Below are positions 8,295-32,382 of a DNA stretch of 55,788 bases, piece after piece. The stretch's first letter is position 1. Each line of letters opens with the position of its first letter. The notes beneath the pieces were generated by a model. It was not told the DNA's origin. It saw only the letters and a program-made list of their open reading frames with translations, and searched no databases. Location of the stretch: NCBI GenBank assembly GCA_903847975.1, contig CAINFC010000308.1, positions 1 through 55,788 on the forward strand. Reading direction: 5' to 3'. The position numbers and the translations under genes were made by a program. The stretch comes from an uncultured Acidobacteriota bacterium (GTDB lineage: Bacteria > Acidobacteriota > UBA6911 > CAINFC01).

Positions 8295-9278
8295 ATGAAA
8301 GATGATTTTCAGGAAAACCCTTTGCTGATAAGGCGGCTGGACAGTCTGGCGGACGGCACGCGACTGCGTCTTCTGCGGATTCTGGAGCGCCAGGAGCTGG
8401 GCGTCATGGAGCTTTGCGAGGTGCTGATCCTGCCCCAGTCCACGGTCAGCCGTCATCTGAAGGTTCTGGCCGACAGCGGCTGGCTCCAGTGCTATCGCAA
8501 AGGGGTCACCAATCTGTACGGCTTTTCCGGGGCGGCCCGCACCGGAGAGTTTTTACGGGTCTGGCAGCCGGTCCGGGATCAGTGCGAAAGCTGGCCCGCA
8601 GCGCGCCAGGACAAGGAGCGCCTCGACGGCCTCCTGATCCGCAAGCGCAAGGAATCGCAGCGGTTTTTCGGCAAGGCGGCCGAAAGCTGGGACCAGCTGC
8701 GGGACGAAATGTACGGTAAGGACCTCACCCGGCTGACTCTTCTTTCCCTGCTGCCCTCCGACTGGGTGGTGGCCGACCTGGGGTGCGGCACGGGGGGCGT
8801 GGCCGCGGAGCTTTCTCCCTTCGTCCGCAAAATCGTCGGTGTCGACCAGTCGGCGGACATGCTGCGGCTGGCCCGCAGGAGGCTGGAAGGCGCTGCCCAT
8901 GTGGAATTTCGCCGCGGTCGCCTGGAGGACATCCCCATCGAAGCGGAAGAGTGCCATGCCGCCCTTCTCCGCCTGGTGCTGAGCTACGTTCCGCAGCCGG
9001 CCAAGGTGATCGCCGAGGCCGCCCGGATCCTGAAGCCGGGCGGACGGCTGGTGATTCTCGATCTCGGCGAGCACGCCCGGGAGGATTTCCGCAAGAGAAT
9101 GGGCCAGCTGTGGCTGGGGTTCCGCACAGAGGAGATCGGCCGATTGCTTCAGGAGGCCGGGCTGGAGGAATTCCGCCTGGTTCCCCTGCCGCTGGAGCAG
9201 GGGGCCAAGGGCCCGCCGCTTTTCATTGCCGGGGCGGAAAAGCCGGCTGCCACCGGAACCGGGTTCCGGAAAAAGTAA
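8295..9278 (+). CDS. ArsR-family regulator fused to a SAM-dependent methyltransferase
   Basis: 327 residues in two domains. Residues about 10-75 form a winged helix of ArsR type ([11 protein letters not shown], then [19 protein letters not shown], the recognition helix). Residues about 130-310 are a class I methyltransferase with motif [10 protein letters not shown] near 162 and [11 protein letters not shown] later. No ArsR metal-binding Cys pair is seen. The architecture suggests a sensor that binds SAM or SAH through the methyltransferase fold. Context supports this: the next gene, 32 bases downstream, is SAH hydrolase, and ArsR-family SahR regulators control the SAM cycle in other phyla. 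ATG 8295 is preferred because promoter and operator lie just upstream and the tRNA gene occupies the farther upstream frame. Ligand and regulatory role are inferred. Confidence 0.88.
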
Positions 9279-9310
9279 ATTCACAATCGTCAGGAAAAGG
9301 AGAAACAATA

Positions 9311-10786
<1,476 letters not shown>

Positions 10787-10798
10787 CCCCTCCCTGCT

Positions 10799-10860
10799 GT
10801 TCTTCCCGGCCTTCCCGTCTTCCTGTGAAAAAGAAGCACAGGAAGGCGGGAAGAACCGGA
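10799..10860 (+). repeat. Family A-like hairpin downstream of ahcY
   Basis: Imperfect inverted repeat: GTTCTTCCCG ... CTTCCTGTG pairs with CACAGGAAGG ... GGGAAGAAC, with a 9-base insertion in the left arm and loop AAAAAGAAG. It belongs to the CTTCCTGT/ACAGGAAG repeat family and starts 13 bases after the ahcY stop, so it probably also terminates the ahcY transcript, although no strong U tract follows. Confidence 0.6.
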
Positions 10861-10951
10861 AGCAACCGACCTTCCGGCCGAGCGGCTGTTTTTTGCTCTT
10901 TTTGCGCAGGCTGTCTGTTTTAGGGCGCAAAATATGATACATTGATGCACT

Positions 10952-13021
10952 ATGACAGCACTGGATTTCAACCTGATCAGCCGTTTGATATTCGGATTCA
11001 TCACCCTGGCGGCGGTGATGGCTTTCGCACATACCGTTACTCGCCGGATCGAAACGATTTTTACCGGGCGCCCCGGGGACCGCTTTGACGACCCCTGGAA
11101 GCGCCTCTGGATTACAATAAAGTTTGCGCTGGGGCAGTACCGCATGCCCCAGGAGCCGGCCGCAGGCTGGCTGCATATCTTCATCTTTGCCGGCTTCCTG
11201 GTGGTCTCCCTGCGGACCCTGACTCTGTTCGGGGTCGGCCTGAGCGGCACCGCCGCTTTCCACCTCCCCTTCCTGGGAGAGGATTCCGCCCTGGGCCAGG
11301 GTTACGCCTTTCTGAAGGACATCGTATCCGGCCTGGTGATGGTCGGCTGCCTGGGCTTTGCCTGGCGGCGGCTGGTTTCCCGGCCGGTGCGCATGCAGAA
11401 GATTCACCACGCCGAGCCGGTGTTCATCCTGGCGGTGATTTTTTCCCTGATGACCACCGACCTTGTCCTGGATGGCGCCCAGAGGCTGGCGGCAGGACAG
11501 AGCGGCCTCTGGCCCGCGCCTCTGGCCTCCATTGCCGCAGGATTTCTGAACCCGGCTCATGCCGCCTCCGTCTTTCAGTGGAACCTGTGGGCCCACTGCC
11601 TGCTGATCCTGGGCTTTTTGAACTACCTGCCCCACGGCAAGCATTTCCACATTCTGACCTCCTTCCCCAACACCTTCTTTTCCCGGCTGACCCCGCCCGG
11701 CCGTCTCGAGCCGATCCGCGACATGGAGGCCGTTATGGAAAAAGCCCTGGAAGGCGAGGGAAGCCTGGGGGCGGTCAAGGTCGAAGACCTCTCCTGGAAG
11801 ATGCTGCTCGACGCCTACACCTGCACGGAGTGCGGGCGCTGCGTGCCGCAATGCCCGGCCTGGTCCACGGACAAGCCGCTTTCCATGCGGACCATGAATA
11901 CCGACATCCGCAACCACCTGAACGAATCCTATTCGCTGCGCGGCGGCGAGAGCAGGCAGCCGCAGGGTCCGCACGGCGGACACGGGGGACACGGCGAGCC
12001 CGAATCCGTGCCCCTGACCGGCGGAATCATCGGCGAAGAAACCATATGGTCCTGCACCCTGTGCCGCGACTGCGAAGAGCGCTGCCCGGTCATGATCGAG
12101 ATGGTTCCGCGGATGGTGGAGATGCGCCGTTATCTGACCATGATGGAATCCCGCTTCCCGGCGGAGCTGACCCGGGTCTTCACCGGACTGGAGCGGCAGT
12201 CCAACCCCTGGGGCATCTCCCGCGAGGAAAGGGGCAAGTGGCTGGAAAAGACCGACGTTCGCCGGATCTCCGACGATCCCGACGTCGAGTATCTGTTCTT
12301 TGTGGGCTGCATGGGAAGCTACGACGATCGCGCCATCCGCACCAGCAAGGCTTTTGCTGCCATTCTCCAGGCGGCCGGGGTCCGCTTCGGCGTGCTCGGG
12401 GAGGAGGAGAACTGCAACGGCGAGATGGCCCGGCGGCTGGGAAACGAGTACCTGGCGCAGATGCTGATCAACGCCAACGTGGAAACCCTGCAGGGCTACG
12501 GGGTGAAAAAGATCGTCACCAACTGCCCGCACTGCTTCAACACCCTGAAGCACGAATATCCCGACTTCGGGGGGCACTACCAGGTCCTGCATTCCACCGA
12601 GCTGGTGGAGGAGCTGATGCGCAACAAGCGGCTCCCCGGGCTGCAGGCCGGCCCGATCGGCGAGATCGCCTATCATGACCCCTGCTTCCTCGGGCGCTAC
12701 AACCGGCAGTTCGAGGCGCCGCGGAATCTGCTGCGCGCCGGCGGGGCGCGCGTGCTGGAGCCGGAACTGGCCCGCTCCCAGTCCTTCTGCTGCGGCGCCG
12801 GCGGGGGACGCATGTGGGTGGAGGAGCACGAGCCGCGGGTCAACACCCGGCGCTTCGACCAGATTTTCGAAGGATGCCGCTCGCCCAGGACCATCGGCGT
12901 TTCCTGCCCCTACTGCATGACCATGCTCGGCGACGCCGCCAAGGGAAGGGGAAAAGAGGAGCAGGTGGCGGTCCGGGACGTCATGGAAATCGTCGCGGAT
13001 CAGCTCGGATTAACCTACTAG
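10952..13021 (+). CDS. Membrane Fe-S oxidoreductase with two CCG domains (EMO-like)
   Basis: 689 residues. Order: NarI-like N-terminal membrane domain (several hydrophobic segments up to about residue 220); two [4Fe-4S] ferredoxin motifs (C291-x2-C-x2-C-x3-C301 and C368-x2-C-x2-C-x3-C378); two cysteine-rich CCG domains with CPHCFNTLKHEY and CCGAGGGRMW. This layout matches heterodisulfide-reductase-related proteins and the ETF:menaquinone oxidoreductase-type protein of anaerobes, which pass electrons between a soluble flavoprotein and the quinone pool. A His/Gly-rich insertion (GPHGGHGGHGE, about 342-352) lies between the two ferredoxin motifs. No ETF genes are adjacent; nuoA starts 8 bases downstream, implying one operon. 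A TATGAT box at 10933-10938 would give a leader of about 6 bases. Electron donor not determined. Confidence 0.87.
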   Translation: MTALDFNLISRLIFGFITLAAVMAFAHTVTRRIETIFTGRPGDRFDDPWKRLWITIKFALGQYRMPQEPAAGWLHIFIFAGFLVVSLRTLTLFGVGLSGTAAFHLPFLGEDSALGQGYAFLKDIVSGLVMVGCLGFAWRRLVSRPVRMQKIHHAEPVFILAVIFSLMTTDLVLDGAQRLAAGQSGLWPAPLASIAAGFLNPAHAASVFQWNLWAHCLLILGFLNYLPHGKHFHILTSFPNTFFSRLTPPGRLEPIRDMEAVMEKALEGEGSLGAVKVEDLSWKMLLDAYTCTECGRCVPQCPAWSTDKPLSMRTMNTDIRNHLNESYSLRGGESRQPQGPHGGHGGHGEPESVPLTGGIIGEETIWSCTLCRDCEERCPVMIEMVPRMVEMRRYLTMMESRFPAELTRVFTGLERQSNPWGISREERGKWLEKTDVRRISDDPDVEYLFFVGCMGSYDDRAIRTSKAFAAILQAAGVRFGVLGEEENCNGEMARRLGNEYLAQMLINANVETLQGYGVKKIVTNCPHCFNTLKHEYPDFGGHYQVLHSTELVEELMRNKRLPGLQAGPIGEIAYHDPCFLGRYNRQFEAPRNLLRAGGARVLEPELARSQSFCCGAGGGRMWVEEHEPRVNTRRFDQIFEGCRSPRTIGVSCPYCMTMLGDAAKGRGKEEQVAVRDVMEIVADQLGLTY

Positions 13022-13029
13022 GATCGGAC

Positions 13030-13389
13030 ATGGAAACCTTTATACCCATTTTGATGATGGCCGGCGTGGTGTTCGGGGCCTTTTCCCTGACCTACGCCCT
13101 GAACTGGATTCTGGCGCCCCGCCAGAACCTGAAAGCCCCGGTCAAGCGGGAAGCGTTCGAGTGCGGCAACGTCAGTCCCGATCCCGGGGAAAGAAGGCGC
13201 TACATCGGCTTTTACCTGCTGGCCATCGATTTCGTTCTCTTCGACGTGGAGATCGCCTTTTTTTACCCCTGGGCGGCCGCCTTCGGGCAGCTGGAGCGGC
13301 AGACCCTGGTGTTCGTGGCGGTCTTCCTGATGATCCTGATCGCCGGTTTCATTTATGCCTGGAAAAGCGGAGCCCTGGAGCTGGAATAG
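13030..13389 (+). CDS. nuoA: NADH-quinone oxidoreductase subunit A
   Basis: 119 residues with three membrane helices. Seen: REAFECGNVSPDPGERRRYIGFYLLAIDFVLFDVEIAF, in which the E-C-G and the acidic residues FDVE are family hallmarks (motif positions about 41-78). The subunit helps form the quinone-entry region of complex I next to NuoH and NuoD. It starts 8 bases after the Fe-S oxidoreductase and is followed 51 bases later by nuoH. The normal neighbours nuoB, nuoC and nuoD are absent from the window. Confidence 0.95.
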   Translation: METFIPILMMAGVVFGAFSLTYALNWILAPRQNLKAPVKREAFECGNVSPDPGERRRYIGFYLLAIDFVLFDVEIAFFYPWAAAFGQLERQTLVFVAVFLMILIAGFIYAWKSGALELE

Positions 13390-13440
13390 CCCCGGGGTGC
13401 GGATTCCACGGATAAGTCAACGACAAGGCTGAAAAATTCT

Positions 13441-14526
13441 ATGGATGCTGTGTTCCTGATTTCGACCCTCGTGAAAATCCTGCTGGTGTTCAGCGGCGTG
13501 CTGGGACTGGTGGTGCTGCTGACCTGGCAGGAAAGGAAGCAGAGCGCGCTGATGCAGGACCGCATCGGCGCCAACCGGGCTGCCATCCTCGGCTTCCGGC
13601 TGTTCGGCCTGATCCACTCCGCCGCGGACGGCCTGAAGATGATGAGCAAGGAAACCTTCATGCCGGCCCATGCCCGGAAGGCAGTCTACATGATCGCCCC
13701 GCTGCTGGCCGCTTCCTTTGCGATGATGGCTTTTGCGGTCATCCCCTTCGGCGATTCCATCGAACTTTTCGGGCTGGTCATTCCTTTGCGGATTGCCGGA
13801 ATGAGCGTGGGCATCCTGTACGTTTTCGCGATGATGTCCCTCAGCGTTTACGGCGTGGTCCTGGCCGGCTGGGCATCCAACAACAAGTTCGCCTTCCTGG
13901 GCGGGATGCGGGCCTGCTCGCAGATGATCGCCTACGAAATCACCATGGGCGCCACGCTGCTCGGCCTGGTCCTGATTTTCCAGACCCTCGATCTGAATGC
14001 CATGGTCCAGGCCCAGGGCACGCTGATCGGGGGCGTTCTGCCCCGCTGGGGCATCTTCCTGCAGCCCCTGGGCTTTCTGCTTTTCCTGACCGCCGGGATC
14101 GCCGAAACCAAGCGGGTGCCCTTCGATCTCCCGGAAGGGGAATCGGAAATCATCGGCTATTACGTGGAATACAGCGGGATGCGCTTCGGGCTGTTCATGA
14201 TGACCGACTTCATCGAAACGGTGCTGGTGGCCGCCCTGGTGACCACCCTTTTCCTGGGCGGCTGGCAGGTGCCCTTCCTGGCCTCCGACGGCTTTCATTT
14301 TCCCGGCGGGGCCGAGGTCAAGCTTTCGGGCATCGCGGTTTCTCTCCTGCAGATGGCCGCTTTCGCCCTGAAGGTCTATGTGCTTTGCTGGCTGCTGCTC
14401 CTCATCCGCTGGACGCTGCCGCGCTTCCGCTTCGACCAGCTGCTGCAGCTCGGCTGGAAGTACCTGCTGCCCGCCTCCCTGGCCAATATCGTACTCACCG
14501 CCGCGGCCCTCTACCTGTTGAAGTAG
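13441..14526 (+). CDS. nuoH: NADH-quinone oxidoreductase subunit H
   Basis: 361 residues, polytopic inner-membrane subunit that forms the quinone tunnel. Seen: WQERKQSALMQDRIGANRA near the N-terminus, the loop GWASNNKFAFLGGMRACSQMIAYE, and the diagnostic ETKRVPFDLPEGESEIIGYY with the conserved acidic residues. About eight hydrophobic segments. It follows nuoA after 51 bases; this A-H pair without B-G or I-N is unusual, since most bacteria keep a complete operon. A stable hairpin starts at the stop codon. Confidence 0.96.
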   Translation: MDAVFLISTLVKILLVFSGVLGLVVLLTWQERKQSALMQDRIGANRAAILGFRLFGLIHSAADGLKMMSKETFMPAHARKAVYMIAPLLAASFAMMAFAVIPFGDSIELFGLVIPLRIAGMSVGILYVFAMMSLSVYGVVLAGWASNNKFAFLGGMRACSQMIAYEITMGATLLGLVLIFQTLDLNAMVQAQGTLIGGVLPRWGIFLQPLGFLLFLTAGIAETKRVPFDLPEGESEIIGYYVEYSGMRFGLFMMTDFIETVLVAALVTTLFLGGWQVPFLASDGFHFPGGAEVKLSGIAVSLLQMAAFALKVYVLCWLLLLIRWTLPRFRFDQLLQLGWKYLLPASLANIVLTAAALYLLK

Positions 14527-14553
14527 CCGGGCCGTTCAAAGCGCCGGCCCGGC
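14526..14553 (+). terminator. Hairpin at the nuoH stop
   Basis: Perfect 9-bp GC-rich stem GCCGGGCCG / CGGCCCGGC with a 10-base loop, beginning on the last base of the nuoH stop codon. No U tract follows, so it may be a 3' stabiliser or a Rho-dependent end rather than a strict intrinsic terminator. Confidence 0.5.
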
Positions 14554-14632
14554 CCAAAGTATAAGGGCTGAAGGCCCGCCCTGCAAACACAAATCCTTCC
14601 AAAGAGATGAAGGTGCAAAAATATTTCATTTT

Positions 14633-14851
14633 GCTCTGCCGTCCCGATGGGACTTGCTCCAAGGCGGGAGCCAACCCGGCAATGAATTGCCGGGCCACAA
14701 TCTTACCGTCCCTACGGGACTTGCGTGTGTGCCACACCGGGTGAAATAGCGGATATCGTACCGTTGTGCTCCGCCATGGCCTTGGGAGGCCCCGCGTAAA
14801 CCGGCACACGGCTGTGATTCCAAGGCAAAGTCCCGTCAGGGACGGCAGAGC
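14633..14851. repeat. Family B composite repeat, copy 1
   Basis: About 219 bases bounded by inverted ends: GCTCTGCCGTCCC at the left and GGGACGGCAGAGC at the right. Inside are submodule Ba, with the perfect hairpin CCCGGCAA-TGAA-TTGCCGGG (14675-14694), and submodule Bb in reverse orientation, separated by the palindrome GTCCCTACGGGAC (14709-14721). Ba recurs at 29520; Bb recurs forward at 29595 and 33049 and reversed at 55091. It is followed by a half D motif (14864-14880) and a half A repeat (14936-14966). The 457-base space 14527-14983 holds only these repeats and the nuoH hairpin. Confidence 0.75.
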
Positions 14852-14935
14852 CGGACGAGACAACGATTTTTTGCGAATCCATCAAAGGAAATGCCGAGGT
14901 AACAGGGCTCCATCTCGTGGCAACAGGCTCTTTCG

Positions 14936-14966
14936 CTTTTCTTCCCGCTCTTCCATTCTTCCTGTG
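14936..14966. repeat. Partial family A repeat
   Basis: CTTTTCTTCCCGCTCTTCC followed by ATTCTTCCTGTGG matches one arm of family A (compare the inverted copy near 40438-40470). The partner arm is missing, so it is a truncated copy just downstream of the MFS gene end. Confidence 0.5.
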
Positions 14967-14983
14967 GCCGATTTTTTTCACGG

Positions 14984-16255
14984 TTATCCGGCGGCAACCG
15001 GCCTGTTCCGCAGGTTGCGCAACAGCAGGTACGCCAGGGGGTGCAGGAAGCCCATCACCACGAAAATCGGAGCATAGGAGTAGGAGGTGACCGCGCGGCC
15101 CACCAGGTTGGTGGATACCATGCCCCCGAAGCCGGATCCGGCGGCCACCAGGCCGAAAACCGTGCCCAGCACCGGCTTGGGAAATAGATCGACGATCAGC
15201 GTGCTGGCCGTGATCTGCCAGGCCAGGTGGGCAAAAGCAGCCAGCGCCGCTATTCCCACCGCAACCAGCGGGGAGGAGGTCAGGTTGATCAGCGGGCTCA
15301 GCGGGAGGAGAAAAACGGCCACGGCCATCACCCGCAGCCGGCTGCGCGGCGCGGACAGGCCCCGGCGGATGAACCGGCCGGAGAGGTAGCCGCCGAGAAT
15401 GGAGCCGACGTCGGCCGCCAGGTAGACGATCCAGGCGATGCGGCCGACTTCCGCCAGGCTCAGGTGCCGGGCGTCGGTCAGGTACTTGGGAAACCAGAAA
15501 AGATAAAAATACCAGACCGGATCGGTGATCATCCGCCCGAACATCAGCAGCCAGGTCTCCCGGCGCCCCAGGATGTAGCGCCAGCGGTTGGCCATAACCT
15601 CCTCCGGGGCGGGTTGCGGCGCGGCCGGCCGCTCTTCGATCAGGCGCCGCTCCTCTTCGCCAAGGCGGGGGTGCTCCTCCGGGCGCCGGTAGAGCCAGAG
15701 CCAGGGGAGCACCCAGATCAGCCCCAGCGAGCCGGTGAGAAGAAAAACGGTGCGCCAGTGGAAGTGGGTGGCCAGGTAGGCGATCAGCGGCGGGGCCAGC
15801 GTGGCGCCCAGCGTGGCCCCGGCGGTGTAGATGCCGATCACCAGGGCGCGCTCCCGCACCGGGAACCACTCCGAAACGGCTTTGGGCGCAGCGGTATAGT
15901 TGCCGGGCTCGCCAACCCCCAGCAGGAAGCGGAAAAAGCTCAGGCTCAGCAGCCCGCGGCTCAGCGAGGTGAGCATGTCGGCCAGGGACCACCAGACGAT
16001 GAAGCAGGCCATGGACACCCGGGTGCCCAGGAAATCGGTCAGCCGCCCGGCAAAGAGATAGGAAAGGGTGTAGGCCAGCAGGAAGGCCTGCACCACGTAG
16101 GAGTACTGAAGGTCGCTGATCCGCAGATCGTCCTGTATGGTGCGGGCCAGGATCGACAGGTTCTGCCGGTCCATGTAGTTGATCACCGTCGACAGGAACA
16201 GCAGCCCGGCAATCCACCAGCGCAGGTGACGTATTTTTCCGGGGGCCCGGGTCAT
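14984..16255 (-). CDS. MFS transporter, anion:cation symporter (ExuT-like) family
   Basis: 423 residues with about 12 hydrophobic segments. Seen: INYMDRQNLSILARTIQDDL in helix 1, the MFS motif GRLTDFLGTRVSM between helices 2 and 3, and the ACS-family stretch GVGEPGNYTAAPKAVSEWFP. Relatives transport hexuronates, galactonate and other sugar acids with H+; the exact substrate is not readable. The start at 16255 was chosen because it lies 13 bases after the stop of the upstream FAD oxidoreductase and begins right before helix 1. It is the last gene of the TonB receptor - FAD oxidoreductase - MFS run, suggesting inner-membrane uptake of the compound brought in by the receptor or released by the oxidoreductase. 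Confidence 0.88.
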   Translation of the reverse strand: MTRAPGKIRHLRWWIAGLLFLSTVINYMDRQNLSILARTIQDDLRISDLQYSYVVQAFLLAYTLSYLFAGRLTDFLGTRVSMACFIVWWSLADMLTSLSRGLLSLSFFRFLLGVGEPGNYTAAPKAVSEWFPVRERALVIGIYTAGATLGATLAPPLIAYLATHFHWRTVFLLTGSLGLIWVLPWLWLYRRPEEHPRLGEEERRLIEERPAAPQPAPEEVMANRWRYILGRRETWLLMFGRMITDPVWYFYLFWFPKYLTDARHLSLAEVGRIAWIVYLAADVGSILGGYLSGRFIRRGLSAPRSRLRVMAVAVFLLPLSPLINLTSSPLVAVGIAALAAFAHLAWQITASTLIVDLFPKPVLGTVFGLVAAGSGFGGMVSTNLVGRAVTSYSYAPIFVVMGFLHPLAYLLLRNLRNRPVAAG

Positions 16256-16268
16256 AGGGGAGCCCTTT

Positions 16269-18566
16269 TCAGCTCCCGGGAGGCGGATGGGGCTCCGGCG
16301 GGTAGCAGCGCACTTCGAAGAGCGCGGCCGGAGCGCCGCGGGTTTCGAGAATCTCGATGGTGAGCTCTGCGGTGCAAACCGGCGGATCGAGCCGTATGCG
16401 GTTGCGGGTCTGGTGATTTTCCGGACAGTAGAAAAGCTCTTCTCCTTTCGCATCCAGCAGACGGTAGCGTTTCACGCAGAAGGGGATTTCCCGCTCGGGA
16501 TGCCCCAGCAGGACCGACTCCAGGGGATGATCGAAATCGGTATCGAACCCGAGCTCCACCCGGCCGATGGTCTGCGGCTCCGCCCAGCGCAGGGTGAGCC
16601 GGGGGGCGGGATCCTGGGGATCGGCCACCCAGGCATTGGTCTGCAGGACCGGGCGGGCCAGGCCGTTGGTCACCTGGCTTTCGTCGAACACCGCCAGCGG
16701 CGGATCCACCGAGAGGGCCAGGCTTTTTCCGCCGGGGCGCCGTCCGGGAAGCCAGAACTCGAAAGAGTCGATGCCGCTGCCCGCCGGCGGCTGCTGCCGC
16801 GTGCTGGAGGCCACGGCCTTGTTCACCGAGAGGGACAGGCTCAGAATGCCGGTCCGCCGCGCTTCGCTGAGGTGCACCGCCACCAGCGGGTTGCTCCGCA
16901 GGCAGAAGCTGAGATAGCAGGGAGCTTCGAGCGTCCCGCTTCCCGGCAGGCAGACCGGCTGCCGGTTGCCGGCAGCCAGCGCAACGCTCTGCCGGTGAAG
17001 AACGACTTCGGGGGTGTAGTTTTCCCGCTTTTCCGCGGCGCGAATCTCCATCTCCAGGGTGGTATCGGCAAGAACATCCACCAGGAAAGTGACCGAGGGA
17101 ATAGGCCCCGCGGGGACCGGCAGCAGCATGGCTTTGGAGGCCTCGAGCGGAACGGTTTCGCCGTTGGGCTCCAGCTCCCGCAGTACGCAGCGGCTCGAGC
17201 TGCTCAGGGCGGCGGCCCGCGCCAGGTCCTCCGGATCGCTCCGCCTCCGCCCGGGAATGTATTGCCCCGACTTGAGCAGCTCCTGCTGCAGCTCGCCGAT
17301 GGGCACCTCCCGCGGCAGAACTCCGTATTTTCGGCAGAGCACGGCCGCCATGCCCACCGCCTGGCCGTTGTGGGCGCAGGTGGCCATCACCCGGGTGGAG
17401 CCGAAGGCTACGTGCGAGGCGCTGATCAGCCGCCCGGTCAGAAAGAGATTGCGAATGTTGCGGCTGTACATGGTGCGGTAGGGAATGGCGTAGATCCCCT
17501 TGGAATGCCACTGCGTGCAGCTGGCCAGGGGGCTGTAAATCCCGTCGGCCGGGTGCAGGTCCATGGCCCATCCGCCAAACGAAACGGCATCGTCATGGGG
17601 GCGCTGCCCGACAATATCTTTCTGGGTCAGGATGAAATCCCCCTCGAAGCGGCGGCTTTCCCTTTTCCCGGGGATGGTCCCCACCCACTCCAGGGTCATG
17701 GTCTCGGCTTCCGGAAATTTTCCGGAATTCTTAATGTAGTTCCAGACCCCGTGGACGATCTTCCAGAGCCTCCACTTGATCGTCTCCGTTTCGTGGATGG
17801 TGTCCAGCCGGCCGCCGTACTCGAACCACCAGAAGCGGCAGCCGGAGTCGCCGGCGCGGATATCCATGAAGCGCGGAATCCGGGTGATGTCCCGGATGGC
17901 ATAAGAGGGCGGGACATACCGCACCGGCTGGCCGGTGTCCTTGGAATAGAAATAGAGGGAGTGCCCGAGCAGCTGGCCGTAGGCTTCGTTGGGGGCGAAC
18001 CCCTCGTCGAACTCCTCGCGGCTCTCGGCGCCCATGCGGAAGGCCGCTCCGGCCAGGAATCCCAGGATGCCGTCGCCCGAGGCGTCGCAAAACAGCGGCG
18101 CCCGGACGGCATACGCTGTGCTGTTCTGGCTGCACCAGGCCTGCACCGCGGAAATGGTATCGGCATCCGCCTTGTCGAGCTGGTGCACGGCGGTGTTGAG
18201 CAGCAGGGTGATGCCCGGCTCCTCCGCCACTTTTTCGAGCAGGATGGTATCCAGGATCAGCGGATTCCCTTCCGGGTTGCGGTAGAGATTTTCCACCAGG
18301 ATCTCGTCGACCACCCCGCCCTCGCGGGCCCAGCGGTTGTTGTTGCCCATGTGGGAGGTGGCCCCCAGAACCCACAGCCGCACCTCGCTGGAGGCGTTTC
18401 CGCCGAGCACCGGACGGTCCTGGATCAGAACCACCCGGATGCCGGAGCGCGCCGCGGTGATCGCCGCGCAGGTGCCGGCCAGGCCTCCGCCGCACACGAC
18501 CAGATCGGTCTCCAGTTCCACCTTTTTTTCCTGCCGCGGATCGGCAGAGCCCGGGTCCTGTATCAT
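16269..18566 (-). CDS. FAD-dependent oxidoreductase (FAD_oxidored family)
   Basis: 765 residues. N-terminal FAD-binding Rossmann fold (about 19-50: LVVCGGGLAGTCAAITAARSG, then VLGGNASSEVRL), typical of the PF12831 family found in polysaccharide and sugar-acid gene clusters. The later motif LFLTGRLISASHVAFGSTRVMATCAHNGQA closes the cofactor site. The C-terminal 250 residues look like beta-sandwich modules, the last resembling a discoidin-type fold (PQTIGRVELGFDTDFDHPLESV). No signal peptide, so cytoplasmic as read. ATG 18566 lies 2 bases after the receptor stop, i.e. translational coupling. Substrate unknown; oxidation of a sugar or cyclitol is an inference from context. Confidence 0.85.
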   Translation of the reverse strand: MIQDPGSADPRQEKKVELETDLVVCGGGLAGTCAAITAARSGIRVVLIQDRPVLGGNASSEVRLWVLGATSHMGNNNRWAREGGVVDEILVENLYRNPEGNPLILDTILLEKVAEEPGITLLLNTAVHQLDKADADTISAVQAWCSQNSTAYAVRAPLFCDASGDGILGFLAGAAFRMGAESREEFDEGFAPNEAYGQLLGHSLYFYSKDTGQPVRYVPPSYAIRDITRIPRFMDIRAGDSGCRFWWFEYGGRLDTIHETETIKWRLWKIVHGVWNYIKNSGKFPEAETMTLEWVGTIPGKRESRRFEGDFILTQKDIVGQRPHDDAVSFGGWAMDLHPADGIYSPLASCTQWHSKGIYAIPYRTMYSRNIRNLFLTGRLISASHVAFGSTRVMATCAHNGQAVGMAAVLCRKYGVLPREVPIGELQQELLKSGQYIPGRRRSDPEDLARAAALSSSSRCVLRELEPNGETVPLEASKAMLLPVPAGPIPSVTFLVDVLADTTLEMEIRAAEKRENYTPEVVLHRQSVALAAGNRQPVCLPGSGTLEAPCYLSFCLRSNPLVAVHLSEARRTGILSLSLSVNKAVASSTRQQPPAGSGIDSFEFWLPGRRPGGKSLALSVDPPLAVFDESQVTNGLARPVLQTNAWVADPQDPAPRLTLRWAEPQTIGRVELGFDTDFDHPLESVLLGHPEREIPFCVKRYRLLDAKGEELFYCPENHQTRNRIRLDPPVCTAELTIEILETRGAPAALFEVRCYPPEPHPPPGS

Positions 18567-22265: not shown

Positions 22266-23483
22266 ATGCAGAGCCAAGAAAAGATCACCGGCAGAAAAAA
22301 GGGGGACAAAGCCCGAAAGCAGGGGAAGTCTTCCTTCGTGCGCGTGGCGGTCCTGGTGGACACCTCCACCTCCTGGGGGCGGGGGATCGTCCGCGGCATC
22401 CACCGCTACAGCATAAGCGAAGGAAACTGGCAGGTCTTCATCGAAGCCCGGGGGCTGGAAGAGCGCCTGGAGGTGCCGCGCGGCTGGGTGGGCGACGGGG
22501 TGATCGCCCGCATCACCGACCGGGAAATGGCCCTGCGGCTGCGGGCCCTGCGGCTGCCGGTGGTCAATATTTCCATCATTCAGTACCCCGGTCCCCAGTT
22601 TCCCCGGGTCTACAACGACCACGGCCGGGTGGCGGAGATGGCCGCCCGGCACTTTCTGGACCGCGGCTTCCGCCATTTTGCCTACTTCAGTCTGCTGGGC
22701 CTGGAATATGTGGCGCATCAGAAAAATGTCTTTGCCGAGCACCTTCGCGCCAAGGGGTACGACTGTTCGGTTTTCGAAGTCGGCGCACACCGCGGCGCGG
22801 AGCCCGACTGGAGTACGGACATCGACCGCCTGGCGGACTGGATCGGCACTTTGCCCAAACCGGTGGGGATTTTCACCTGGAATGCAGGCTGCGCGCGGGA
22901 AATCCTGTACGCCTGCCAGGCCGGCGGATTCTATGTGCCCGAGGATGTGGCCGTGCTGAGCGGATCGGACGACGACTGCCTTTGCGAGGTCTCGCACATC
23001 ACCATCTCGGCGGTCATGCCCGCCGCGGAGCGCAACGGGTTTGAAGCGGCGCGCATCCTGGGCCGGCTCATGGCCGGGCAGCCGGCGCCCCGGGAGCCCC
23101 TGGAGATCGCCCCGATCCGCATCGTCGCCCGGCAGTCCACCGACACCCTGGCGATGCGCGACCCGATTCTGACCCGAACCCTGGCCTTTATCCGGGAAAA
23201 GGCCAGGCAAAATCTCCGCGTGGAGCAGCTGGCGCGGCAGGCCGGCATTTCCCGCCGCGTTCTGGAGCGGCGCTTCGCGGTACACCTGGGAAGGTCGCCG
23301 GCCGAGGAGATCCGGCGCGTCCGCCTGGAGCGGGCCAAGGAGCTGCTGCTGCAGACCTCGCTTTCGATCCCGGAAGTGGCCGAATCCTCCGGGTTCGGGT
23401 CCCCGGAGTACATGTCTTACGTTTTCCGGGAAACGCTGCAGTTGACCCCGCTGCGCTATCGCAAGATGGCCTACCGCCCCTAG
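22266..23483 (+). CDS. XylR-like regulator: LacI-type sensor plus AraC HTH
   Basis: 405 residues. Basic N-terminus, then a periplasmic-binding-protein-like sensor domain (about 24-290: VRVAVLVDTSTSWGRGIVRGIHRY, the XylR-family opening), and a C-terminal AraC/XylS DNA-binding domain (about 300-405: NLRVEQLARQAGISRRVLERRF and VAESSGFGSPEYMSYVFRETL). In E. coli this architecture is XylR, which activates xylose genes upon sugar binding. The motif SGSDDDCLCE matches the sensor-domain segment that contacts the sugar in the family. Divergent from the TonB receptor operon, 175 bases apart, which it very likely activates in response to a sugar. The ligand cannot be deduced. Confidence 0.92.
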   Translation: MQSQEKITGRKKGDKARKQGKSSFVRVAVLVDTSTSWGRGIVRGIHRYSISEGNWQVFIEARGLEERLEVPRGWVGDGVIARITDREMALRLRALRLPVVNISIIQYPGPQFPRVYNDHGRVAEMAARHFLDRGFRHFAYFSLLGLEYVAHQKNVFAEHLRAKGYDCSVFEVGAHRGAEPDWSTDIDRLADWIGTLPKPVGIFTWNAGCAREILYACQAGGFYVPEDVAVLSGSDDDCLCEVSHITISAVMPAAERNGFEAARILGRLMAGQPAPREPLEIAPIRIVARQSTDTLAMRDPILTRTLAFIREKARQNLRVEQLARQAGISRRVLERRFAVHLGRSPAEEIRRVRLERAKELLLQTSLSIPEVAESSGFGSPEYMSYVFRETLQLTPLRYRKMAYRP

Positions 23484-24045: not shown

Positions 24046-25872
24046 TCAGCGCACCGACAAATTGCTCGAGGAGGCCTGGGTGTTCTGCGGCAGGTGGCAG
24101 TGACTGCAGCCCGCGGTCTGCGCCCGGCCGTCGATGCGGTGCTTCCAGGGGCGAAGCAGCTCCACCTCTTCGTGGCACCGGACGCAGGAGTAGCTCCTCT
24201 CCTCGGCCAGCCGGTGGGCCCTGGCAAAGTGCCGGTATCCCTGGAGGGAACCGAAAAACTTCATCGGCAGCAGATGGCACCCTCGGCAGGACAGGTCATT
24301 GCCGTCCGTTGCCGCCGGCGTTTCGAAGCGGGCCGGCTCCGGCGGACGAGTTTCCTTCCCGCCGGCCAGAAAGCGTCCCGCCCGCCGCCCCTGGATCAGG
24401 GAAGGAGCCAGAAACGTGCCTTCCAGACCGGCCTTGCCGTTGACCCCGCCGAGGCCGGCCACCTCCCCGACCGCCAGCAGGCCGGGGATCGGGCGCCCGG
24501 CCGCATCCAGCACCCGGCAGTCGGTGTCGACGCGCAGCCCGCCCATATTCTTGCGGGTCATCGGAAAAACCTGCATGGCATAAAAAGGAGGCTTCCGGAA
24601 TTCGCGCGGTGCCGGAACGGGAAAGACCTGCAGCCAGGGCGGTAGCGCCTGCGGGCCGAAGCGCTGAAAATCCTTGTCTTCCCCTTCGCGCACCATGCGG
24701 TTATAGCGCTCCACGGTGATCTGCAGCCGGTCGGCGGGCAGGCCCGCCCGGCTGGCCAGCTCTGCCCAGGTTCCGGCGCTCCGGGTGACGGCCGGATTAT
24801 CGACCAGCTGCCGCCGGGCATATTCGCGGTCGGCCCAGTCCGTGCCGGAGTAGCGCAGGTCCTCGGTACCCGGCTCATCGAAGATCAGCCAGTAGGTAGC
24901 CGGCTTCTGCCGCAACAGGGCATCCAGGGTGAAGCGCGACCCCTGCCACTCGTTCACGAATCGCTCCCCCTGGGCATTGACCCAGATGGCATTGAGGTTG
25001 CGGACGCTCACCGCGCGGTTGTCCTCCGTCAGCCGCGGGTCGGGAACCCCGAAGGGGTAATGCCACTGGTGATCCAGCCGGTGGGTGGCGGCGCCCGCCG
25101 CCAGGCCCATCTGCAGGCCCAGGCCGGCGGAGTTCGGGCTGGCTCCGAGCAGCACCCGGTCGGGCTGCGGCGCGTCCCGGCGCCAGTTCTGCCGCACCAG
25201 CCGCTCGTTTCCCTGGAATCCCCCGGTGGCCAGCACCACCGAGCGGGCCTCGAAGCGCACCGAACGCCGGCTGCGCAGGTTCCGTCCCACGGCTCCCACG
25301 ACCGCTCCGTCGCGGACCACCAGCTCCTCCACGCGGATGTTCCAGTGGAAGCGGATCCGGGGATTCCGGAAGCACTCCCGGTAAATGGGACGCAGCAGCC
25401 CCAGTCCTTTTTCGGTATTCTCGTGGAAGCGGGGTACGTGATTTCCGGCCTGGGGCCGCACCGCAAAAAAGCGGACCCCCAGCCCGGTGAGCCAGTCGTA
25501 GATTTCGCGCCGCGAGTCGTGCGCCAGAATCCGCGCCCAGTCCGGGTCGGCATCTTCCCCCCATTCGCGGATGTCCTTTTCGGCCAGGTCGGGATCGTCC
25601 TGGAAGCCCTCGGCCTTCTGGGTCGGGGTGTCCACGATGAACAGCCCCCCTTCGGAAAGCACCCCGTTGCCGCCGAAGACGGAATTCATCTCGGCCACAT
25701 CCACCCGCAGGCCGCCGAGCCCGGCCTCATAGGCGGCACTCAGGCCGCCCAGGCCGGCTCCGATGACCAGCACATCGCTCGAAGAGACCGCGGCACGACC
25801 ATACAGCCAGGCCAGATACCCGGCGGCCGCTGTCAGACCCAGCAGGAAAAGCACGACCAGCAACCGTTTCAT
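24046..25872 (-). CDS. Flavocytochrome: FAD fumarate-reductase-like domain with C-terminal triheme cytochrome c
   Basis: 608 residues. N-terminal membrane anchor or signal (about 3-26); FAD_binding_2 domain with GAGLGG (38-43) and FGGNG; fumarate reductase/ketosteroid-dehydrogenase-like middle with NAQGERFVNEW and GLEGTFLAPSLIQGRRAG; then three CxxCH haem c sites at C529, C563 and C589 in the last 80 residues, with extra His available as axial ligands. Exported FAD-haem fusions act as periplasmic terminal reductases (fumarate, urocanate, methacrylate types) fed by quinol through cytochromes. Here the haems are at the C-terminus, whereas the Shewanella-type enzymes have them N-terminal. The start at 25872 has GAGGAG upstream. 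Single gene, divergent from the M28 peptidase. The electron acceptor is unknown. Confidence 0.88.
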   Translation of the reverse strand: MKRLLVVLFLLGLTAAAGYLAWLYGRAAVSSSDVLVIGAGLGGLSAAYEAGLGGLRVDVAEMNSVFGGNGVLSEGGLFIVDTPTQKAEGFQDDPDLAEKDIREWGEDADPDWARILAHDSRREIYDWLTGLGVRFFAVRPQAGNHVPRFHENTEKGLGLLRPIYRECFRNPRIRFHWNIRVEELVVRDGAVVGAVGRNLRSRRSVRFEARSVVLATGGFQGNERLVRQNWRRDAPQPDRVLLGASPNSAGLGLQMGLAAGAATHRLDHQWHYPFGVPDPRLTEDNRAVSVRNLNAIWVNAQGERFVNEWQGSRFTLDALLRQKPATYWLIFDEPGTEDLRYSGTDWADREYARRQLVDNPAVTRSAGTWAELASRAGLPADRLQITVERYNRMVREGEDKDFQRFGPQALPPWLQVFPVPAPREFRKPPFYAMQVFPMTRKNMGGLRVDTDCRVLDAAGRPIPGLLAVGEVAGLGGVNGKAGLEGTFLAPSLIQGRRAGRFLAGGKETRPPEPARFETPAATDGNDLSCRGCHLLPMKFFGSLQGYRHFARAHRLAEERSYSCVRCHEEVELLRPWKHRIDGRAQTAGCSHCHLPQNTQASSSNLSVR

Positions 25873-26080
25873 GAAGATGTTCTCCTCTGCGGAAATCGTT
25901 TTTCTTAATCGGCGCGGCGCGGCCTGGGCCCCTTCCGGAAAAGGGTAGACACAACCGCCTTCATAGATTACCATGCCAAAGCCGCAGGAGCCTGCCGGTT
26001 CTTCCGTTATTTGGAAACAAATCGAATCCAGGCGAATAAAAGAGGATATGCGTCAAACAATAACCACGAGGAAAGATGGA

Positions 26081-29713: not shown

Positions 29714-31828
29714 TTATGCCAAGGCCTGCCTCACCCGGGCGGGGGTCATCGGGAGGTGCATCACCCGGGCTCCAACGGCATCGAAGATGGCGTTGGCAAT
29801 CAGGCCGCCCATGAGGATAATGACCGGCTCCCCGCCTCCCTGCGGCGCGAGCGCGTTGTTCTCCACAATCCGGGTTTCGATCCGCGGCATCCAGCTGAAC
29901 CGCGGCAGTTCGTAAGTGTCGAAGTTGCGATCCAGGATCTGTCCGCTCCGGAAGCGGATCCCCTCCGACAGGGCGTAGCCCAGGCCCATCATGGCACAGC
30001 CTTCCATCTGCATCCGGGCCCCTTCCGGGTTGATGACGATGCCCATATCCTGCACGCAGTACACCCGTACGACCTGGACCTTGCCGCTGGACCGGTCCAC
30101 CTTGACCTCGGCGATGGCCGCCACGTAGGTCCCGGCATCCAGCCCGCAGGCAATGCCCAGCCCGCGGCCGCTGGGAGCGGCCGCCTTCTGCCATCCGAAT
30201 CCCCTGCCCGCTTCTTCCAGGACCCGGCGCATGCGCGGATCGCTGGTGTTGGCCAGCCGGAATTCCAGGGGATCGGCTTTGGCCGCGGCGGCCATCAGGT
30301 CGATCTGCGATTCGCGGGCGAAGGTGTTGGTGTTGGCCGCCGGAGCCCGCCAGGGCCCCACGGCAAAGGGGTGCTGCTTGCCGTCGCGGGAGGACCATTC
30401 CCCGTAGATGCGCAGAAGGTTGTGGGGAACATCCTAGTACTGGTCGGAGCCCCGCGAGCCGCAACCGTAGGCCCGGTAATCCCAGAGGCATATCCGCCCG
30501 CTGCGGTCCAGGCCGGATTTGATTTTGATTGTGGCCGCCGGGCGGAAGGCATCGTAAAAAAACTCCTCGGCGCGGGTCCAGGCCACCTGCACCGGCTTGC
30601 CGGCGATCCGCGCCAGCCGCGCGGCCTCCACCACGTGCTGCCCGCCGCTGCTCTTTCCGCCGAAGCCGCCGCCGACAAAAGGGGTGATGACCCGGACGTT
30701 CTGTGGCGCAAAACCCAAAGCCCGCGCCACCTCCTGCTGATTGGGAAACGGAGTCTGGGTGGCCGCCCAGACGGTGGCTTTGCCGTTTTCCACCTGCGCC
30801 AGGGCGGTGTGGGTCTCCATGGGCGCATGGGCCACATAGGCATTGAAATAGGTGCGATCCAGGACCTGGCCGGCCATCCGTTCACCCTCCGCCAGATCCC
30901 CTTTGCGCCCCCGCTCCGCGGCGGCCGGCGCCTGGGCCACCAGGTGCTCGTAAATGTTCTGATCGTCCACGGCCGTAGCCGCCGGTTCATATTCCGCTTG
31001 GATCTTTTCCAGGGCGTGTGCGGCCGTCTTCGGATCGGGGTGCAAAACGGCAATGAGTCCATCCTGGTTTACCACCGTGACACCGGGAACCGCCGCAGCC
31101 TCTGCGGTGTCCGCCTTCACCAGGCGTGCTCCGTGGGACGGCGGGCGCAGCAGCCGGGCATAGAGCATGCCGGGCAACCGCACATCCCCGGCGTACCGGG
31201 CTTTGCCGGTGACCTTGGCCACGGCGTCCAGGCGCTGCGGGGACTGCCCCATGATCCGGAACTGGGAAATCTCCTTCAGAATCGCCTTGCCCTCCAGATT
31301 GCGGACAATCTTCTGGCCCCGGGCCAGCTGGGCGAAGGTGATGCGGGTCGAGCCTCCGGGCATTTCCCGTATGGTCCCGGCTTCCACTCCCAGGCGCTCT
31401 TTGGGAACCTTCAGCTTTTCCGCGGCCATATCCAGCAGCACGGAGCGGGCGGCAGCCGCAGCGGCGCGCAGCGCCGGCCCGAAAACCCGGGTGGAAAGGG
31501 AGCCGAAAGTTCCGCCGTCCGGCACGCACTGGTCGGTGTCCCCCATAATCATGTCGATGGCTTGGAGACTTACCCCCAGCTCGTCGGCGGCCATCTGCGC
31601 CAGGGAAGTCATGACCCCCTGGCCCATCTCGATTTTTCCCGAAAGGATAGCCACCCGGCCGTCCTCACCGATGCGTAAATAGGCGTTGAAATCCTCCGGG
31701 TACCCCCGGCCGCCCTGGGCCTCGAGCTCCGGCGCCTCGCAGAAGAAAAGTATGGTGATTCCGGATCCCAGCTGCTTCAGAAAATCGCGGCGGTCCGGAA
31801 GAAAAGCGTTCCTTTTTTCCGTTTCCAT
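29714..31828 (-). pseudogene. Molybdenum hydroxylase large subunit (IorB-like), interrupted by TAG
   Basis: 705 codons from ATG 31828 to the stop at 29714, with one in-frame TAG at codon 465 (30434-30436). Both sides are well conserved: Tat signal DRRDFLKQLGSG, FNAYLRIGEDGRVAILSGKIEMGQG, the molybdopterin motif FVGGGFGGKSSGGQH upstream of the stop, and GEPVIILMGGLIANAIFDAVG near the end. The family is the isoquinoline 1-oxidoreductase / aldehyde-oxidase type catalytic subunit. The TAG falls in RGSDQY-stop-DVPH, where relatives usually have Tyr or a similar residue, so a one-base change would restore the frame. Starts 14 bases after the small-subunit stop. As read, the protein ends before the C-terminal part of the cofactor site and is probably non-functional; sequence error is the alternative. 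Confidence 0.85.
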
Positions 31829-31842
31829 AAGCTTTCTTTCGC

Positions 31843-32307
31843 TCAGATCTTTCCGACGGTGCTTTCGATGGCTTGCAGAATGCGCGGGTGGGCCCCGCAG
31901 CGGCAGAGGTTGTGTTCCATCTCCTCGAGAATCTCCTGCCGGGTGGGCTTGCGCTTGCGGAGCAGCAGTGCTTAGGCGTTCAGGATCATTCCCGGAGTAC
32001 AGAAGCCGCACTGGAAAGCGCCGTGCTCCACGAACGCCTTCTGCAGCGGGTGCAGCCGGCCGCTTTTCTCCAGGCCTTCGATGGTCACCACGCTCTTGCC
32101 GTTTATCTCGCGGACCGGCAGATGGCAGGATCGAACCGCCTCCCTGTTGACCAGTACGGTGCAGGCCCCGCAGTGGTTTTCCCCGCATCCGAACTTGGTG
32201 CCGGTAAGCCCCAGGTCGGTGCGCAGCACCCAGAGGAGCATGCGGGTGCCCTCGACCTCCAGGCGGGTGGATTTGCCATTGAGGCGAAACTTGATGATTT
32301 CTTTCAT
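31843..32307 (-). pseudogene. Molybdenum hydroxylase [2Fe-2S] subunit (IorA-like), interrupted by TAA
   Basis: Reading through one in-frame TAA at codon 112 (31972-31974) gives a 154-residue protein of normal length for the 2Fe-2S subunit. Before the stop: the plant-type cluster GTKFGCGENHCGACTVL and half of the second cluster (QCGFCTPGMI). After it: ALLLRKRKPTRQEILEEME and NLCRCGAHPRI, which supplies the other two Cys of the second cluster. The truncated 111-residue product would therefore lack a complete second cluster. It precedes the catalytic subunit by 14 bases. Both genes of this operon carry a single nonsense codon and no frameshift, which suggests recent decay or paired sequence errors. 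Confidence 0.85.
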
Positions 32308-32382
32308 AGCGGTAATTCCCGATGAATCGGATTTTACATTATGGGGCCTCCATGCCCCTTGAGTCTGCAGGCACAAGGCATT

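Follow-up and report, generated by a model that had tools for sequence, protein, structure and literature searches.

An FAD_binding_2 protein with a C-terminal triple CxxCH tail in an uncultured Acidobacteriota bacterium: a candidate flavocytochrome c of PRK12834-like type

The locus and its reading frame

The stretch of DNA analysed here, which we refer to as the window, comprises 55,788 nucleotides of contig CAINFC010000308.1 from an uncultured Acidobacteriota bacterium. It holds a putative flavocytochrome gene as a single open frame on the minus strand, running from 25872 down to 24046, and the complementary plus-strand frame 1 of 24046–25872 is interrupted by a stop. The gene is flanked by an XylR/AraC-type regulator, an M28 peptidase, an amidase and an outer-membrane barrel protein. 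The regulator (22266–23483, plus strand) joins an XylR/periplasmic-binding-like sensor to an AraC-type helix-turn-helix and is convergent with the flavocytochrome gene. A molybdopterin-binding hydroxylase-type frame (MoCoBD_1/MoCoBD_2) lies on the minus strand at 29717–32338 and carries an in-frame TAG at 30434–30436, so that it is either a pseudogene or the product of a sequencing error; its two parts align with consecutive regions of a single L047 frame, at 28.8% and 32.0% identity.

The start at 25872 is supported by an AGGAG at 25882–25886, seen by eye 9 nt upstream of the ATG. This ATG opens the hydrophobic segment, and an alternative, longer in-frame start is found at 25974. The features of the gene are the following, all on the minus strand.

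24046–25872, minus: whole coding sequence, 608 residues plus stop (P0001); open reading frame with AGGAG upstream
25798–25869, minus: hydrophobic helix at the N-terminus, signal or anchor, residues 2–25; AlphaFold2 model, export read by eye
24412–25776, minus: predicted FAD_binding_2 flavoprotein domain, residues 33–487; Pfam PF00890, E 9.5e-67
25057–25059, minus: Y272 (motif DxxWxY), in the position of Fcc3 H365; alignment
24550–24555, minus: R440-K441 (motif TRKSMGG), in the position of Fcc3 H504-H505; alignment
24412–24426, minus: LEGTF motif, residues 483–487, preceded by G482 at the place of Fcc3 R544; alignment
24049–24300, minus: putative trihaem c7-like tail, residues 525–608; tail profile against the PDB, PF14522
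24274–24288, minus: predicted haem c site 1, CRGCH 529–533; motif and alignment, lost in L025 and L026
24229–24231, minus: H548, non-CxxCH His (GYxHF), candidate distal ligand; His in 12/12 tails and 15/15 rows
24214–24216, minus: H553, non-CxxCH His, candidate distal ligand; His in 12/12 tails and 15/15 rows
24172–24186, minus: predicted haem c site 2, CVRCH 563–567; motif and alignment
24139–24141, minus: H578, non-CxxCH His, candidate distal ligand; His in 12/12 tails and 13/15 rows
24094–24108, minus: predicted haem c site 3, CSHCH 589–593; motif and alignment

The original prediction, which gave no strand, had described an N-terminal anchor, an FAD_binding_2 domain ahead of the haem motifs and three CxxCH sites within the last 80 residues, and this description stands, with a hydrophobic segment in the place of the anchor; the segment is seen in the sequence, and its residues 2–25 form one helix in the AlphaFold2 model. 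When the last 93 residues were shuffled 200,000 times, three or more CxxCH arose once (a fraction of 5e-06), and the sites are conserved among relatives, which rules out chance as their source. A comparison with the relative at L012 (70.5% identity over 597 residues) gave dN 0.23 and dS 1.41, the latter near saturation, as fits a protein under selection. The arrangement of an N-terminal FAD domain with a C-terminal triple CxxCH is confirmed as real. As c-type haem is covalently attached, it implies export, and the window protein is thus probably exported, with which the N-terminal segment, as read by eye, is in keeping.

Flavin domain and haem tail

By fold, the nearest structures to the window protein are three tied entries, namely UrdA 6t86 (Z 35.8, rmsd 3.5, 438 residues aligned), 4at0 (Z 35.7, rmsd 4.8, 423 aligned) and Fcc3 1qjd (Z 35.3, rmsd 5.5, 429 aligned), while 4c3x gave Z 32.1 (rmsd 3.1, 446 aligned). 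The nearest PDB entries by sequence are Shewanella fumarate reductases, with E 7.8e-43 to 1d4c. Residues of Fcc3 were mapped onto the window protein through a phmmer alignment and a 50-row alignment; H504 and R544, which we take to be the correct Fcc3 labels, were placed by counting along the former. Fcc3 H365 corresponds to Y272, R402 to S312, H504-H505 to R440-K441 and R544 to G482, and the word "distinct" in the original prediction is borne out by these replacements.

The replacements extend to the family. Tyr stands in the H365 column in 14/14 further family rows and 15/15 PRK12834-type rows, and His in 12/13 fumarate-type rows. The H504-H505 columns hold Arg-Lys in 14/14 further family rows and 15/15 PRK12834-type rows, and His-His in all 13 fumarate-type rows. 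At R544, Gly or Ala is found in 14/14 further family rows, Arg in 13/13 fumarate-type rows, and Ala (12) or Ser (3) in the PRK12834-type rows. The R402 column is Arg in 13/13 fumarate-type rows and Gly (14) or Ser (1) in the 15 PRK12834-type rows; the 14 family rows are mixed (Ala 6, Pro 2, Tyr 2, and Val, Glu, Ser and Asp once each), with no Arg among them. The residue directly after the R402 place is basic in 13 of these 14 rows (Lys 11, Arg 2), so that a nearby basic residue may have taken over a shifted form of the role of R402.

For UrdA, the contacts R411, H520 and R560 are described as conserved throughout the fumarate reductase family, with R411 as the equivalent of Fcc3 R402 (PMC7921117, partial text); we took H520 and R560 to be the H504 and R544 columns. 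Active-site comparison with fumarate and urocanate reductases, as the original prediction had suggested, led us to reject two candidate activities, fumarate reduction because the four compared Fcc3 substrate residues are replaced in the window protein, and urocanate reduction because the equivalents of UrdA R411, H520 and R560 are all replaced. The methacrylate reductase Mrd was judged solely by its membership of this family.

The tail resembles a c7-like trihaem module. Three CxxCH together with H548, H553 and H578 are invariant in 12 tails (the window and 11 others), as are the Glu after the second CxxCH and, within GYxHF, the residues Gly, Tyr and Phe; among 15 rows the exceptions to H578 are a Thr in L026 and a gap in the cut L011. 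By sequence the window tail thus has the feature of c7 modules, three CxxCH plus three His outside them, and this is the number of His needed for three bis-His haems. A profile of the tails matched 3ov0, which we take to be the Geobacter dodecahaem GSU1996, at E 1.6e-11, as well as 3oue (2.1e-05) and 3ouq (3.2e-05), and 1rwj weakly. Both PF14522 and PF03264 match 12/12 tails at E <= 0.1 (best E 5.9e-07 and 2e-06, respectively). The window tail alone scored 21.4 bits with PF14522, below its cut-off of 24.8, and 25.8 with NapC/NirT (PF03264), above its cut-off of 24.1; when the whole protein is scanned NapC/NirT falls to 19.1, and the cytochrome models of Pfam that match the tail are all below their cut-offs. 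AlphaFold2 gave low confidence for the haem region in models built without cofactors: ten-residue blocks of the tail had a mean pLDDT of 33 to 51 in the full-length model, and the tail-only model reached a mean of 54.6 (best blocks 71 and 73, pTM 0.37). The linker between the flavin and haem domains varies in length and sequence across the family alignment.

Multihaem proteins appear to be usual in the host, whose genome has 28 matches to Cytochrome_C7 at E <= 0.01, several of them sharing frames and the window's own tail not among them. On contig C231 of this genome (G000), several Cytochrome_C7 matches fall in frames of 1104 and 668 aa, which by their sequence are predicted large multihaem cytochromes.

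Distribution, ancestry and gene neighbourhoods

A search for the same domain order, which the original prediction had proposed, yielded 13 loci, the window included, that carry all three CxxCH in the C-terminal tail (L003–L008, L010, L012–L016 and the window). The genomes that carry them belong to the host's class, Bryobacteraceae and Planctomycetota. L005 nearly duplicates L010, and L008, a C-terminal fragment with three CxxCH, is counted among the 13 but stands outside the 12-row alignment and the tree. L011, a frame that runs to the contig edge with one CxxCH, entered both the tree and the table of residues and stands outside the 12-row alignment. The domain order is kept with two CxxCH in L025 and L026, where the first haem site is lost; all three extra His of the tail are present in L025 and two in L026, which lacks H578. 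L009 and L018, with 30.8% and 25.8% identity and without CxxCH, served as outgroups.

The genome collection, scanned with the sequence of the window protein alone, gave seven loci, namely L012 (Bryobacteraceae, 70% identity), L013–L016 (Planctomycetota, 43–45%), the N-terminal fragment L017 and the distant match L018. Among the host and 59 relatives, 8/60 genomes, host included, had a match at E <= 1e-30, one of these (G017, L009) being the outgroup and another (G037, L008) the fragment. With the 12-row profile at E <= 1e-100, at least 8 of 347 genomes in the sample of the host's phylum, including the host, and at least 2 of 343 in that of L015's phylum, both already found, gave matches; these counts, like those for Pseudomonadota below, are lower bounds, as three candidates were scored per genome. 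The tail profile, applied to 199 genomes of the phylum with at most 28 candidates scored per genome, found at least six places in at least five genomes including the host at E <= 1e-5, all of this family. Seven plasmid records match the window protein at E <= 1e-20, and in none does the match extend beyond query residue 536. The flavocytochrome family is rare and patchy.

As a control for domain order, 398 Pseudomonadota genomes were searched at E <= 1e-60, which gave at least 34 places in at least 33 genomes. Of 30 places examined, 26 lacked CxxCH and four carried it, N-terminally in every case and together with HHTMGG; none of the 30 had CxxCH behind the flavin domain. The contrast that the original prediction drew with fumarate-reductase flavocytochromes is thereby upheld. 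The fused Geobacter homologues of methacrylate reductase likewise have an N-terminal haem part and a C-terminal flavin part (PMC4427408, partial text).

In a tree built from 50 flavin domains, 15 of them from the family, a branch with 100/100 support makes a split, on one side of which lie the family, the 15 PRK12834-type rows and four others, and on the other all 13 fumarate-type rows and three others. The four N-terminal tetrahaem proteins fall inside the fumarate-type group. By this tree and its motifs the flavin domain groups with the PRK12834-type "FAD-binding dehydrogenases" branch, and on the same evidence the haem fusion is most simply taken to be independent of that in Fcc3; two separate fusions, one of Fcc3 type and one giving the C-terminal trihaem, would be the simplest account. 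The family itself is not recovered as one clade, the tree requiring two changes where a single one suffices in 6% of bootstrap trees, but it may still have a single origin. The tree program warned of long branches meeting between the PRK12834-type group and the rest.

Several known systems share part of this design. Proteins of the Fcc3 type (1qjd, 1d4c, 1qo8) are, like the window protein, single-chain FAD_binding_2 proteins with several c haems, but their haem domain is N-terminal with four haems, whereas that of the window protein is C-terminal with a predicted three of c7-like type, and none of the four compared substrate residues of Fcc3 is kept. PRK12834 (NF009472) is the closest flavin-domain branch among the rows compared and shares DxxWxY, RK-S/T-x-GG and LEGTF, motifs (DxxWxY, RKxxGG, LEGTF) that we read from 15 rows and not from a curated rule. 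Unlike the window protein, however, these 15 LEGTFLG rows are without CxxCH, and the window protein scored 181.4 bits against a PRK12834 cut-off of 476, a cut-off passed in none of 31 genomes, host included. No PRK12834 enzyme known to us has had its substrate tested, and the word "dehydrogenase" is therefore in part a database name. UrdA has the same fold and, as Tyr373, a Tyr at the H365 place (PMC7921117, partial text), but it has the R411, H520 and R560 whose equivalents are replaced in the window protein; FMN_bind, for the N-terminal FMN-binding domain of UrdA type, was not among the 14 Pfam families matching at E <= 1. For each of Fcc3, UrdA and PRK12834 a defining feature that was tested is lacking in the window protein, which places it outside all three. 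The 3-ketosteroid dehydrogenases (4at0, 4c3x), compared by fold only, share the fold and are oxidative FAD_binding_2 enzymes, and to our knowledge carry no haem. The tail is like the c7-type modules of 3ov0, 3oue, 3ouq and 1rwj, but fused behind a flavoprotein. The methacrylate reductase Mrd/Mcc and the fused Geobacter homologues also combine a flavoprotein with a multihaem cytochrome, but there the haem part is a separate protein or, when fused, N-terminal (PMC4427408, partial text).

The family libraries scanned contain no trihaem-tail fusion. In the titles and first lines of abstracts among the full-text literature matches listed, in which few subscription papers were covered, we found no C-terminal haems on an FAD_binding_2 enzyme and no characterised enzyme of this order. 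The fold and the parts are of known kinds; their combination, the apparently separate origin and the active-site class appear to be new to the libraries and literature searched.

When 15 loci were clustered by their neighbours, no neighbour was common to all; the scans of neighbours were partial, covering 18 distinct proteins in relatives and six frames in the window. No oxidative neighbour gene of the kinds found in relatives lies beside the window's copy or that of L012, which is flanked by a sulfatase and a BNR-repeat protein, and the flanks of these two say nothing of redox direction. In L042 a cytochrome c gene is followed on the same strand by a PQQ-type dehydrogenase (578.8 bits, cut-off 480.05). 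A gene of the FMN hydroxyacid-dehydrogenase type, with an RR-type leader by eye, adjoins the flavocytochrome gene divergently in L013–L016 and lies upstream on the same strand in L046, there itself behind a PQQ-type protein below the cut-off (366.6 against 480.05); the two FMN-type proteins scanned were both below their cut-offs. In L041 the first gene downstream encodes a thiamine-diphosphate enzyme, likewise bearing an RR-type leader, and the second a haem-binding cytochrome. This thiamine-diphosphate protein (L041:1001–2614) passes NF006122 "hypothetical protein" (620.1 against 571), and the other one scanned passed no model among 25 matches listed. The thiamine-diphosphate or FMN-type neighbours in L040, L041, L013–L016 and L046 have RR-type leaders by eye and are possibly exported.

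A mandelate-like pathway, with an FMN hydroxyacid dehydrogenase and a thiamine-diphosphate enzyme, was considered and dropped, as the two types were not seen together at any one locus, an argument that is weak because several contigs are short. In L048 a minus-strand run (9170–16618) consists of an amidase-type gene, one for a tartrate dehydrogenase (565.3 bits with TIGR02089, above its cut-off of 470.4), one of outer-membrane barrel type and the flavocytochrome gene; the barrel-type protein clusters with that of the window, which also has an amidase nearby.

Direction of electron flow and possible function

Our preferred reading, to which we give slightly better than even weight, is that the window protein is an exported flavocytochrome c, a dehydrogenase feeding electrons via its own trihaem tail to the cytochrome c pool. 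Membrane-anchored or periplasmic, it would join a PRK12834-like flavin domain to a c7-like trihaem tail. FAD would take two electrons from a carbonyl-containing substrate by desaturation beside the carbonyl, a reaction known for several FAD_binding_2 enzymes, the electrons would pass singly from FAD through three bis-His haems c, and the tail would hand them to a cytochrome c in the periplasm, from which they would enter respiration. The binding of both haem and flavin is predicted from sequence, and a carbonyl-containing substrate is the kind we infer. For the oxidative direction as such our confidence is again just past the midpoint, because the site is PRK12834-like and some relatives have oxidative neighbours; against it stands that such neighbours are seen in 2 to 5 of 15 loci, and that L013–L016 are close kin.

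The original prediction had called the protein a reductase, a label left unsupported, though unrefuted, by the position of the flavin domain on the PRK12834 side of the 100/100 branch and by the oxidative neighbours. It could be a periplasmic terminal reductase, in which electrons would run from the quinol pool through a cytochrome and the trihaem tail to FAD and an unsaturated organic acceptor that is neither fumarate nor urocanate. The haem-linked FAD_binding_2 enzymes, namely Fcc3, the methacrylate system and the fused homologues, are described as reductases in PMC6719666 and PMC4427408 (partial texts), the host is rich in multihaem cytochromes, and the tail alone exceeds the NapC/NirT cut-off. 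We nevertheless consider this reading unlikely, if worth keeping in view, as the catalytic Arg and the other three compared residues of the fumarate site are replaced, several relatives have oxidative neighbours, and a quinol dehydrogenase was found in none of the 18 neighbour proteins of relatives and none of the six window frames covered by the partial scan.

The tail could instead serve for docking or as a tethered store of electrons, in which case some other acceptor would turn over the FAD; in the relatives with two CxxCH it may be decaying. The loss of the first CxxCH in L025 and L026, of H578 in the latter, and the variable linker would suit this, but the invariance of three haem sites and three extra His in 12/12 tails makes it improbable in our judgement. 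That the protein is an ordinary, diverged flavocytochrome c fumarate reductase in which a rearrangement carried the haem domain from the N- to the C-terminus seems to us very improbable, since its best NCBIfam match, TIGR01813 flavocytochrome c, stays below the cut-off (197.8 bits against 285.45) and the kinship with Fcc3 chains (Z about 35, best PDB sequence matches) is set against four fumarate residues replaced in the window and 14/14 further family rows, a place in the tree with PRK12834-type rows, and three c7-like haem sites with no tetrahaem.

Returning to the dehydrogenase reading, we suggest tentatively, and at somewhat less than even confidence, that the family forms another class of flavocytochrome c, evolved separately from the first, in Acidobacteriota and Planctomycetota. 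In it a PRK12834-like dehydrogenase with a C-terminal trihaem wire would couple the desaturation of an organic, exported substrate directly to periplasmic or extracellular electron transfer, and would mirror fumarate-type respiration in the order of its domains as well as in the flow of electrons. Haem-fused FAD_binding_2 enzymes are easily taken for fumarate-type terminal reductases. Judging from this family, haems were acquired in the superfamily on two or more occasions, at opposite ends, and since the second acquisition involved a flavin domain whose active site differs, the label "fumarate reductase flavocytochrome" would be misleading here. If the enzyme is oxidative, two phyla would have in it a respiratory dehydrogenase for carbonyl compounds that can be tested directly, and it would offer a handle on the uncharacterised PRK12834 enzymes.
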